From: Lysobacter auxotrophicus
GTDB lineage: Bacteria > Pseudomonadota > Gammaproteobacteria > Xanthomonadales > Xanthomonadaceae
Direction of reading: 5' to 3'
DNA length: 64,000 bases
Assembly (NCBI RefSeq): GCF_027924565.1
Contig: NZ_AP027041.1
Coordinates: forward strand, 1,178,001-1,242,000
A program made the position numbers and the translations under genes. Below the pieces are notes generated by a model. It made no database searches and was not told the DNA's origin. It was given only the letters and a program-made list of their open reading frames with translations. This document shows, piece after piece, positions 23,941 to 26,612 of this stretch. The stretch's first letter is position 1; each line of letters opens with the position of its first letter.

Positions 23941-24840
23941 ATGTTCGACACCACGCCCATCCTCGACTGCAACGGCCGCCCGCTCGCGCTTGATCGCCCG
24001 CGCGTGATGGGCATCGTCAACGTCACGCCGGATTCGTTCTCCGATGGCGGCGCGCACGACACGCTGGACGCCGCCGTGGCTCACGGCATGAAGCTCGCGG
24101 AGGAGGGCGCCGACGTGCTCGATATCGGCGGCGAGTCCACGCGTCCCGGCGCGGCAGAGGTGCCGGTCGAGGAAGAACTGCGTCGCACGATTCCCGTCAT
24201 CGAACGACTCGCGAAGCAGACGACGCTGCCGATCAGCATCGACACGTCCAAGCCCGAGGTGATGCGCGCCGCCGTGCAGGCCGGCGCCGGCATCATCAAC
24301 GACGTCTACGCGTTGCGACGCGAAGGCGCGCTCGATGCCGCGGCCGGACTCGGCGTGCCGGTCGTGCTGATGCACATGCAGGGCGAGCCGCGTTCGATGC
24401 AGGACGCACCGCAGTACGACGATGTCGTCGCCGACGTGCATCGCTTCCTCGCCGAGCGCATCTTCGCCGCCGAAATGGCCGGCATCGCGAAGAAGAAGAT
24501 CGTCGTCGATCCGGGATTCGGTTTCGGGAAGAACACGCAGCACAACCTCGCCTTGCTCGCGCAGCTGGAGCGTCTTGCCGAGCTCGGCGTTCCGGTGCTC
24601 GCCGGCCTGTCGCGCAAGCGCACGATCGGCGAACTCACCGGGCGCGACGATCCCCGCGAACGCGCGATGGGTTCGGTTGCAGCGCACCTCATCGCGGCAC
24701 AGCGCGGCGCGAAGTTGCTGCGCGTGCATGACGTCGCGGCGACCGTGGACGCGTTGAAGGTCTGGAGCGCGGTAGCCGCGCAGGCGATGCCCCGCGCGAA
24801 GAGCACGCCGTCGATGCCGAAGTGGCCGGACGACGAGTGA
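23941..24840 (+). CDS. folP: Dihydropteroate synthase
   Basis: 299 residues from ATG 23941. It joins p-aminobenzoate to the pterin pyrophosphate in folate synthesis and is the sulfonamide target. Signatures: RVMGIVNVTPDSFSDGG, DIGGESTRPGA, ISIDTSKPEVM, VDPGFGFGKN and the C-terminal RVHDVA that binds the pyrophosphate. No strong Shine-Dalgarno is seen. ftsH-folP adjacency is conserved, but in E. coli glmM follows; here an 800-bp repeat region comes next. Confidence 0.96.
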   Translation: MFDTTPILDCNGRPLALDRPRVMGIVNVTPDSFSDGGAHDTLDAAVAHGMKLAEEGADVLDIGGESTRPGAAEVPVEEELRRTIPVIERLAKQTTLPISIDTSKPEVMRAAVQAGAGIINDVYALRREGALDAAAGLGVPVVLMHMQGEPRSMQDAPQYDDVVADVHRFLAERIFAAEMAGIAKKKIVVDPGFGFGKNTQHNLALLAQLERLAELGVPVLAGLSRKRTIGELTGRDDPRERAMGSVAAHLIAAQRGAKLLRVHDVAATVDALKVWSAVAAQAMPRAKSTPSMPKWPDDE

Positions 24841-24929
24841 TTCGCCGGTTGGCGATTTTTTGACCGAACATGCTACGCGCCTTGCGGGGCAAGGCGCGCA
24901 GTGCGATACGCACATCGCTGTCCGCATGC

Positions 24930-24952
24930 TTGTCCACAGCAGGTGTGGATAC
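24930..24952. promoter_or_regulatory. DnaA-box-like inverted pair 1
   Basis: TTGTCCACA, five bases, TGTGGATAC. Each 9-mer differs from the E. coli box TTATCCACA (read on the appropriate strand) by one base; TTGTCCACA is the preferred box in some high-GC bacteria. Confidence 0.6.
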
Positions 24953-25077
24953 CGTGCGATGCGATGCCGAAAACGACCCCGACGTCAAACGATTTCTCTG
25001 GTCAATTTTTAGCCAAACTTCGGCAACGCTTGCGGCGCAAGGCATGCAGCGTGGTCTCCACACCGATGTCCCAAGGC

Positions 25078-25100
25078 TTGTCCACAAGCGATGTGGATAG
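25078..25100. promoter_or_regulatory. DnaA-box-like inverted pair 2
   Basis: TTGTCCACA, AGCGA, TGTGGATAG; same geometry as pair 1, 148 bp further on. Confidence 0.6.
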
Positions 25101-25249
25101 CCGTCGTCGGCGCATGCGTGGGCACTGCAGCGCGATGCCGAATTCGCCTCGCAAGTCAAACGTTTTTCGCGATCAATTTTTCGCCAAACCTCTTGCAATG
25201 CTTGCGCTGCAAGGGGTGCAGCGTGGTCTCCACATCGATGTCCCAAGGC

Positions 25250-25272
25250 TTGTCCACAGGCGGTGTGGATAG
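25250..25272. promoter_or_regulatory. DnaA-box-like inverted pair 3
   Basis: TTGTCCACA, GGCGG, TGTGGATAG; 172 bp after pair 2. Confidence 0.6.
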
Positions 25273-25432
25273 CCGGCATTACCGTGCCGGGTAGCGTGTT
25301 CGCACGCATCGTGGTCGATGCCGAAAGTGCCGTGTTCGTCAAGCAGAACGTGTGGTGATTTTTTAGCCAGAATTGCGCGCGGCCCCGTGGCTGCGATGTC
25401 TGCGGCGGATGCCCACATCGCTGTCCGCAGGC

Positions 25433-25455
25433 TTGTCCACAGGCTGTGTGGATAG
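25433..25455. promoter_or_regulatory. DnaA-box-like inverted pair 4
   Basis: TTGTCCACA, GGCTG, TGTGGATAG; 183 bp after pair 3. Confidence 0.6.
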
Positions 25456-25546
25456 CCGTGGCGAGCTGGCCAAAATTTCGCCAAACACCCGAAGAACCTT
25501 GCCGCGCCTGGGCTGGACTGTCTTATCAACAGCTTTGCCCCAGCGG

Positions 25547-25569
25547 TTCTCCACACCTTGTGTGGAAAG
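25547..25569. promoter_or_regulatory. DnaA-box-like inverted pair 5 (degenerate)
   Basis: TTCTCCACA, CCTTG, TGTGGAAAG; keeps the TCCACA-N5-TGTGGA core and spacing. A single TTATCAACA (25523-25531) lies just upstream. The pair ends 68 bp before the miaA start. Confidence 0.45.
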
Positions 25570-25637
25570 CGCGGGTGGCGGCGTTTTCCCCGACGCCGCC
25601 CTGTGCGAGGCTACGCCCTCGACCCGTCGCCTCCGAC

Positions 25638-26612
25638 ATGCCCGCCGACACGCGCCCCATCGCGATTGCCCTGATGGGCCCGACCGCCTCGGGCAAGACG
25701 GCGCTCGCGCTCGACTGGGCGGAGCGCTTCGGCGGCGAGATCGTCAGCGTCGATTCCGCGCTGGTGTACCGGCGCCTCGATATCGGCTCGGCCAAGCCGA
25801 CGCCCGACGAACAGGCCCGGGTGCCGCACCACCTGATCGACCTGCGCGAACCGTGGCAGCCGTATTCGGCGGCGGAGTTCGCGCTGGACGCGCGGCGCGC
25901 GGTGGAGGACATCGTGCGTCGCGGACGGCTGCCGATCCTGGCGGGCGGCACCGGCCTGTACTTCCACGCGCTGCTGCACGGTCTTTCGCCGATGCCGGAG
26001 GCGGACGCGGCGACGCGAGCCCAGCTGGAAGCCGAAGCGGACGACCGCGGCTGGGTGGCGCTGCACGCCGAGCTGACCGCGATCGATCCCGAGGCCGCCG
26101 CGCGCATCCACGCCACCGACGCCCAGCGCATCCAGCGGGCGCTGGAGGTGTTCCGGTTGTCGGGCCGCACGATCAGCGATTGGCGCCGCGAGCCGCGGCC
26201 GCCCCGCCTGCCGGTACGGGTCCTGAAGCTGGTGCTCGCGCCGGCGGACCGCGCCGAACTGCACGAGCGGATCGCCCGCCGCTTCGACCTCATGCTGCAA
26301 GCGGATTTCCTCGACGAAGTGCGCGCGCTGCGGGCCATGCCGGAGCTGCGCGCGCACCCGGCGCCGCTCGACCTTCCGGCCTTGCGCGCGGTCGGTTATC
26401 GCCAGGCCTGGGAGCATCTGGATGGCGCGACCACGCCGGCCCAGTTCCGCGACCGCGGCATCCAGGCGACCCGGCAGCTCGCCAAGCGCCAGCTCACCTG
26501 GCTGCGCGGCGAACTCGACGCGATGTGGTTCGATCCGCTACGGCAGCGCGAGGCCCTGGAGGCGGTGCGGACGGGCTTCATGGGAGCGGCCGGGGAGCCC
26601 GCGACGGGTTGA
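25638..26612 (+). CDS. miaA: tRNA dimethylallyltransferase MiaA
   Basis: 324 residues from ATG 25638. It adds a dimethylallyl group to A37 of tRNAs reading UNN codons. The P-loop [17 protein letters not shown], the [17 protein letters not shown] segment, [16 protein letters not shown] and the C-terminal [10 protein letters not shown] are family signatures. The frame is open further upstream through the repeat region, but that part is not conserved. hfq follows 136 bp downstream, the usual miaA-hfq-hflX-hflK-hflC order. Confidence 0.96.

Follow-up and report, generated by a model that had tools for sequence, protein, structure and literature searches.

The intergenic DNA between folP and miaA in Lysobacter auxotrophicus carries a five-unit repeat array that is probably a tandem cluster of DARS1-like modules promoting ADP-to-ATP exchange on DnaA. 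As the array units are near-copies of an element closely resembling the DnaA-recharging site of E. coli, they suggest that these bacteria have multiplied that switch. The reading draws on the observed geometry, conservation and position of the units and on their profile match to DARS1. Inspection of the window, the whole 64-kb stretch of DNA that was analysed, located the five units of a preliminary description at 24840-25569, each with a head-to-head pair of DnaA boxes separated by a 5-bp spacer (boxes II and I, Table 1) and with pair-to-pair spacings of 148, 172, 183 and 114 bp. The distance from the CC of the flanking motif to the box, also described as fixed, measured 66, 65, 66, 66 and 66 bp in units 1-5. 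Every unit also has two boxes that are missing from that first description: a third, which is weaker and precedes TTGTCCACA by 3 bp, and a fourth, which precedes the third by the same distance. Boxes I-III are numbered as in E. coli DARS, and 'box IV' is a label introduced here.

Table 1. Features of the folP-miaA interval and the single-copy element of the same genome. Positions are those of the window unless given on contig C1.
Feature	Position	Strand	Sequence	Basis
folP, upstream neighbour	23941..24840	+		open reading frame; name read from translation
DARS1-like unit 1	24840..24952	+		R1 profile match 24840-24951, 33.7 bits
Unit 1 motif	24851-24865		GGCGATTTTTTGACC	sequence
Unit 1 box IV	24906-24914		ATACGCACA	box phase
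Unit 1 box III	24918-24926		CTGTCCGCA	box phase
Unit 1 box II	24930-24938		TTGTCCACA	
Unit 1 box I	24944-24952	-		
DARS1-like unit 2	24994..25100	+		R1 match 24994-25099, 28.0 bits
Unit 2 motif	25000-25014		GGTCAATTTTTAGCC	
Unit 2 box IV	25054-25062		GTCTCCACA	
Unit 2 box III	25066-25074		ATGTCCCAA	
Unit 2 box II	25078-25086			
Unit 2 box I	25092-25100			
DARS1-like unit 3	25170..25272	+		R1 match 25170-25271, 27.0 bits
Unit 3 motif	25171-25185		GATCAATTTTTCGCC	
Unit 3 box IV	25226-25234		GTCTCCACA	
Unit 3 box III	25238-25246		ATGTCCCAA	
Unit 3 box II	25250-25258			
Unit 3 box I	25264-25272			
DARS1-like unit 4	25350..25455	+		R1 match 25350-25454, 36.8 bits, E=2.7e-10
Unit 4 motif	25354-25368		GGTGATTTTTTAGCC	
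Unit 4 box IV	25409-25417		ATGCCCACA	
Unit 4 box III	25421-25429		CTGTCCGCA	
Unit 4 box II	25433-25441			
Unit 4 box I	25447-25455			
Terminal unit 5, distinct form	25462..25569	+		R1 match 25462-25567, 19.4 bits
Unit 5 motif	25468-25482		GGCCAAAATTTCGCC	
Unit 5 box IV	25523-25531		TTATCAACA	
Unit 5 box III-like	25535-25543		TTGCCCCAG	
Unit 5 box II	25547-25555		TTCTCCACA	
Unit 5 box I	25561-25569			
miaA, downstream neighbour	25638..26612	+		tblastn with E. coli MiaA
hfq, hflX, hflK, hflC, purA	after miaA			tblastn with E. coli Hfq, HflX, HflK and PurA; hflC by position only
Single-copy full-length DARS-type element (L030), beside priA, with IHF-like site	C1:368938-369071	-		own genome

Within the 4.155-Mb, one-contig genome, the pattern TTGTCCACA-N5-TGTGGAT with up to two mismatches gave seven strand-wise matches, corresponding to the five array units and to one palindromic site at C1:368938 that was matched on both strands, and the reversed control pattern gave none. 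The co-occurrence of DnaA boxes and T-tracts could also point to a replication origin or a plasmid-like iteron origin, the least probable of the readings considered. The dnaA gene, with boxes of its own, lies at C1:322, however, 1.2 Mb from the array (C1:1202840-1203569), in agreement with the earlier remark that no dnaA is nearby. The dnaA region contains two perfect TTGTCCACA boxes, so this box type is also found at the presumed origin.

To compare the units with known DnaA-binding loci, a profile (R1) was built purely from sequence, using 27 single-copy sites of the order and excluding both the array units and E. coli; of 28 such sites, L012 was omitted because it is without a third box and without the flank. 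R1 matched all five array units (Table 1) as well as E. coli DARS1, the latter at 36.2 bits (E=4.2e-10 in 94 kb). A run on the whole L. auxotrophicus genome gave 10 matches at E<=1, none of them outside the array and the priA-side site. The datA locus scored 20.2 bits without the head-to-head half, above both the terminal array unit and the DARS2 site, the latter being a weak match of 16.3 bits. As datA and DARS2 reach scores close to that of the weakest array unit, it is DARS1 to which the array is strongly linked. A score restricted to the flank (columns 1-100, boxes excluded) gave DARS1 +17.1 at register 0, with z = 5.1 against 5000 shuffles, and no more than -6.6 at any other register within 12 shifts. 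The flanks of the five array units gave z = 2.7-3.2 at register 0, although two of the five fitted marginally better at register -1 and a third at +2. An E. coli pair at L127:2952-2974, considered as the DARS2 core, was set aside as R1 points to L127:2636-2670; the DARS2 flank z of 0.6 is uninformative because it was computed on the former pair.

DARS1 in MG1655 DNA reads TTATCCACT-N5-TGTGGATAA-N3-TGTGTATTA. Like the array, DARS1 is intergenic (bioD-uvrB), follows the order box I, N5, box II, N3, box III and has a T-tract/CCAA flank at the same profile column. It differs in being one element at another location, with TTATCCAC-type boxes and no in-phase fourth box. E. coli DARS1 needs no IHF. 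The array units likewise have three boxes with box I opposed to boxes II and III, box III being weak, and the flank about 50 bp beyond box III was recovered by both the register test and the profile. In excerpts of PMC5742627, the box spacing of DARS1 and DARS2 is identical, with box I opposing II and III, and DARS1 is given as 101 bp long; the array units share the 5- and 3-bp spacing and, in L. auxotrophicus, cover profile positions 24-34 to 133-134, or about 100-112 bp. DARS2, in the rppH-mutH interval, resembles the array in the core spacing of its profile-found site, and a Fis-like motif is possible in both. DARS2 requires IHF and Fis (excerpt of PMC4245941), whereas at the profile position 0 of 50 array units came within three mismatches of the IHF consensus, which was taken from PMC8682772 (excerpt) with the first base relaxed to Y for this analysis.

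These unit statistics cover 50 array units from 12 genomes, with the terminal units of L135 and L139 (box TTGCCCACA) outside the 50, and since the array sequences come from related genomes the units are not independent. Across 39 genomes (own, genus, family and order), the pattern TTRTCCACA...TGTGGAYA with a spacer of 0-30 bp allowed had exactly 5 bp in 116 of 124 strand-wise matches, palindromic sites being counted on both strands. The exceptions were six matches in G017 and one each in G021 and G036, and the reversed control gave a single match. The spacing of the box pair is the constrained quantity. Box III agreed with TTRTCCACA at 7/9 positions in 38 of the 50 units, at 6/9 in 2 and at 5/9 in 10 terminal units. 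Box IV, in 12-bp phase and 3 bp before box III, reached at least 6/9 in 45 of 50 array units versus 0 of 27 single-copy sites; it is usual in array units of the genus itself and was found in 4 of 23 non-terminal units (eight loci) of other genera. Both TTGTCCACA and CTATCCACA fall outside the E. coli box consensus TTWTNCACA. A Fis-like 15-mer, GnnYAnnnnnTRnnC (consensus from an excerpt of PMC8682772), was present in the T-tract with at most one mismatch in 47 of 50 array units; the corresponding figures were 13 of 50 for a control position and 16% for shuffles. Single-copy sites gave a modest 14 of 27 at the same threshold, against 5 of 27 at the control place.

In E. coli, DnaA molecules on boxes I and II meet head-to-head and ADP is released (excerpts of PMC8682772, PMC5742627). 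By analogy, each module would have DnaA molecules bound head-to-head at box II and the opposed box I, and box III, together with box IV, would extend a tandem DnaA run at the 12-bp phase. As at E. coli DARS, ADP would be loosened from DnaA in this assembly, and the apo-DnaA set free would take up ATP and so supply more ATP-DnaA for initiation. The T-tract/CCAA motif, some 50 bp beyond box III, would correspond to the stimulatory flank of DARS1 and is a possible Fis-binding site. We infer in this way that the array binds DnaA and Fis, supports nucleotide exchange and affects initiation. Recharging is possibly Fis-assisted; a Fis homologue was identified in 8 of 8 genomes examined, that of L. 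auxotrophicus included. A DiaA homologue was present in 2 of 8 genomes examined, with none in the whole L. auxotrophicus genome at E<=1e-4.

The main rival, considered unlikely, is that the array is a DnaA sink or a datA-like inactivation site, at which the boxes would titrate DnaA or promote ATP hydrolysis and thereby restrain initiation. The clustering of boxes would suit such a role, as 10 of the 11 boxes in the 64-kb window that match TTRTCCACA at 8/9 or better lie inside 24841-25600 (760 bp), and many copies could equally titrate DnaA. DARS1, DARS2 and datA are themselves also treated as titration loci (excerpt of PMC12371093). In addition, datA (glyY-queG) is likewise a box cluster upstream of miaA, about 6.3 kb away in E. 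coli, and gives the partial R1 match described above. Pure titration, however, needs neither the exact N5/N3 geometry nor the flank register. The boxes of datA form an N3-spaced pair with no N5 head-to-head core, and the opposed half is missing from its profile match. Moreover, datA is IHF-dependent (excerpt of PMC4585315), and the scan at the profile position found in array units no IHF-like site of the kind that lies between the essential boxes of datA. As a model for the array, datA was therefore disfavoured on geometry, though the neighbourhoods overlap. The initial proposal of a 'datA- or DARS-like DnaA-binding locus' stands at the level of sequence, with the evidence favouring DARS over datA because the N5 pair, the N3-spaced third box and the position of the flank fit DARS1 and datA has an N3 pair. 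DnaA titration could nevertheless act alongside recharging.

The placement of the array is not random in close relatives, as it lies between folP and miaA in 11 of 11 congeners, and four or five pairs occupy this interval in all 12 genomes of the genus, L. auxotrophicus included. The N5 pair itself was present in 36 of the 39 genomes, the exact pattern missing three relatives, and in at least 141 of 149 genomes of a family sample. In a profile search across the family, a full-length R1 site was found in 43 of 44 genera, 7 of the 44 genomes having contributed to R1. In 12 of these 44 genera, comparison of positions placed short sites upstream of miaA at a distance of no more than 3 kb, and draft assemblies may hide others. 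Short sites elsewhere also form doublets, about 113-138 bp start to start.

The fifth pair, previously called degenerate, is instead a distinct terminal form, and does not look like decay because the same spacing and form recur across the genus and in other genera. In each of the 12 genus genomes this last pair starts exactly 114 bp past the preceding one, and the distance is 114-115 bp in 8 of 9 other-genus loci with at least two pairs, the exception (L178) having two weak pairs 202 bp apart. The form TTCTCCACA...TGTGGAAAG occurs in 8 of the 12 genus genomes and variants of it in 4. Box IV of the terminal, miaA-proximal unit is TTATCAACA in 9 of 10 counted units of the genus and in 6 of 8 loci of other genera, the remaining two having TTCTCAACA.

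Given that miaA begins 84-134 bp after the start of the last pair in all 12 genus genomes, the array might be a DnaA-dependent control region of the miaA-hfq operon, a reading that is disfavoured and rated improbable. In Alkalisalibacterium (L078, L141), the pairs come directly after folP and are separated from miaA by putP, so the cluster keeps to folP and not to the miaA promoter. Nine further genera have short sites about 0.8-2.8 kb upstream of miaA, and neither folP nor miaA was matched within 6-8 kb at the clusters L087, L089, L142 and L144. Furthermore, no sigma-70-like promoter was detected in 24700-25750: the promoter and terminator scan gave 0 promoters in this interval, and two terminator-like sites where 1.1 would be expected. 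The open reading frame preceding miaA is putP in L155, a relative whose miaA-upstream stretch, as far as examined, contains no array.

Each box pair can also fold as a hairpin, and unit 1 contains a GC-rich inverted repeat, as might be seen in repeated structured RNA genes or transcript hairpins. This reading is likewise disfavoured, and was rejected as highly improbable on the results of Rfam and consensus folding. No Rfam match reached the gathering score in the window, where two implausible sub-threshold matches were returned, and consensus folding of 37 units (terminal ones omitted) gave the box pair as the sole helix, with 0 compensatory changes.

The single-copy element beside priA in L. 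auxotrophicus has the same core spacing as an array unit and a T-tract/CCAA motif at equal distance, but differs by its IHF-like site, its TTATCCACA boxes, its single copy and its lack of a fourth box. Alignment of the 27 single sites gave an architecture of an IHF-like YAANNNNTTGATW, a TTGGCA-TTTTTT-CCAA stretch, box III, 3 bp, box II, 5 bp and box I. The IHF-like YAANNNNTTGATW is perfect in 13 of 27 sites and within one mismatch in 19 of 27 (0.1% and 1.9% of shuffles, respectively), and a fourth box above 4/9 was seen in 0 of 27. In the 39-genome set, the usual site outside array genomes is one palindromic TTATCCACA-N5-TGTGGATAA; array units depart from single sites in their TTGTCCACA boxes, in having no far IHF-like site and in their distinct last unit. 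Measured from dnaA, the single site is 7-9% of the chromosome away, and the array 28.9% in L. auxotrophicus and about 33% in G006, G010 and G011.

Across a class-wide sample of gammaproteobacteria, at least 101 of 114 genomes matched R1 at E<=0.001. Among the matches listed, 52 genomes had two, 26 had one, 23 had three or more and 13 had none, counts that include weak and both-strand matches. In 17 hand-picked stretches around class-wide sites, that of L. auxotrophicus included, priA adjoins the site in six (L194, L199, L205, L207, L208, L210), with rimO near it in two (L198, L203) and polA in two (L206, L209). A broader reading, on which opinion is evenly balanced, is that Lysobacter and its relatives turned a single ADP-DnaA recharging site into a tandem DARS array of variable copy number, in which the core has four boxes and the terminal module is fixed, array length serving as a dial for initiation timing. 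The ancestral element would comprise an IHF-like site, a T-tract/CCAA motif and a three-box core, often beside priA. If it is present in most Gammaproteobacteria, DARS recharging would be general to the class, beyond the relatives of E. coli. DARS and its conservation are described for E. coli and for the beta- and gammaproteobacteria proximal to it, and conservation of DARS2 in E. coli-related proteobacteria has already been reported (PMC4245941, PMC5742627). The literature used for comparison consisted of excerpts of PMC4585315, PMC8682772, PMC11317965, PMC4245941, PMC12371093 and PMC5742627; among the papers listed by a search judged on title and start of abstract, outside which most subscription journals fell, none reported such an array or a class-wide profile. 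A profile that recovers DARS1 unseen and matches this share of the class makes the generality of DnaA recharging testable, and a natural array of varying copy number offers a dosage series.

Several further arrangements were observed. Clusters of two or three N5 pairs occur in stretches with no folP or miaA (L087, L089, L043, L071; Lysobacter sp. yr284, L. enzymogenes and Tahibacter), and Lysobacter sp. yr284 has two clusters on one contig. The longest array seen, at G140:C77:49540-51194 (part in L177), lies upstream of miaA and comprises nine distinct N5 pairs. L144 (G033:C24), from a different family within the order, contains a five-pair array with 114-115 bp doublets and no miaA or folP match in 6.4 kb. 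In the 5-Mb family member G017 (contig C1), short DARS-like sites are spread over several places; in three of them the boxes are 28 bp apart, and the site nearest to miaA is about 128 kb from it.
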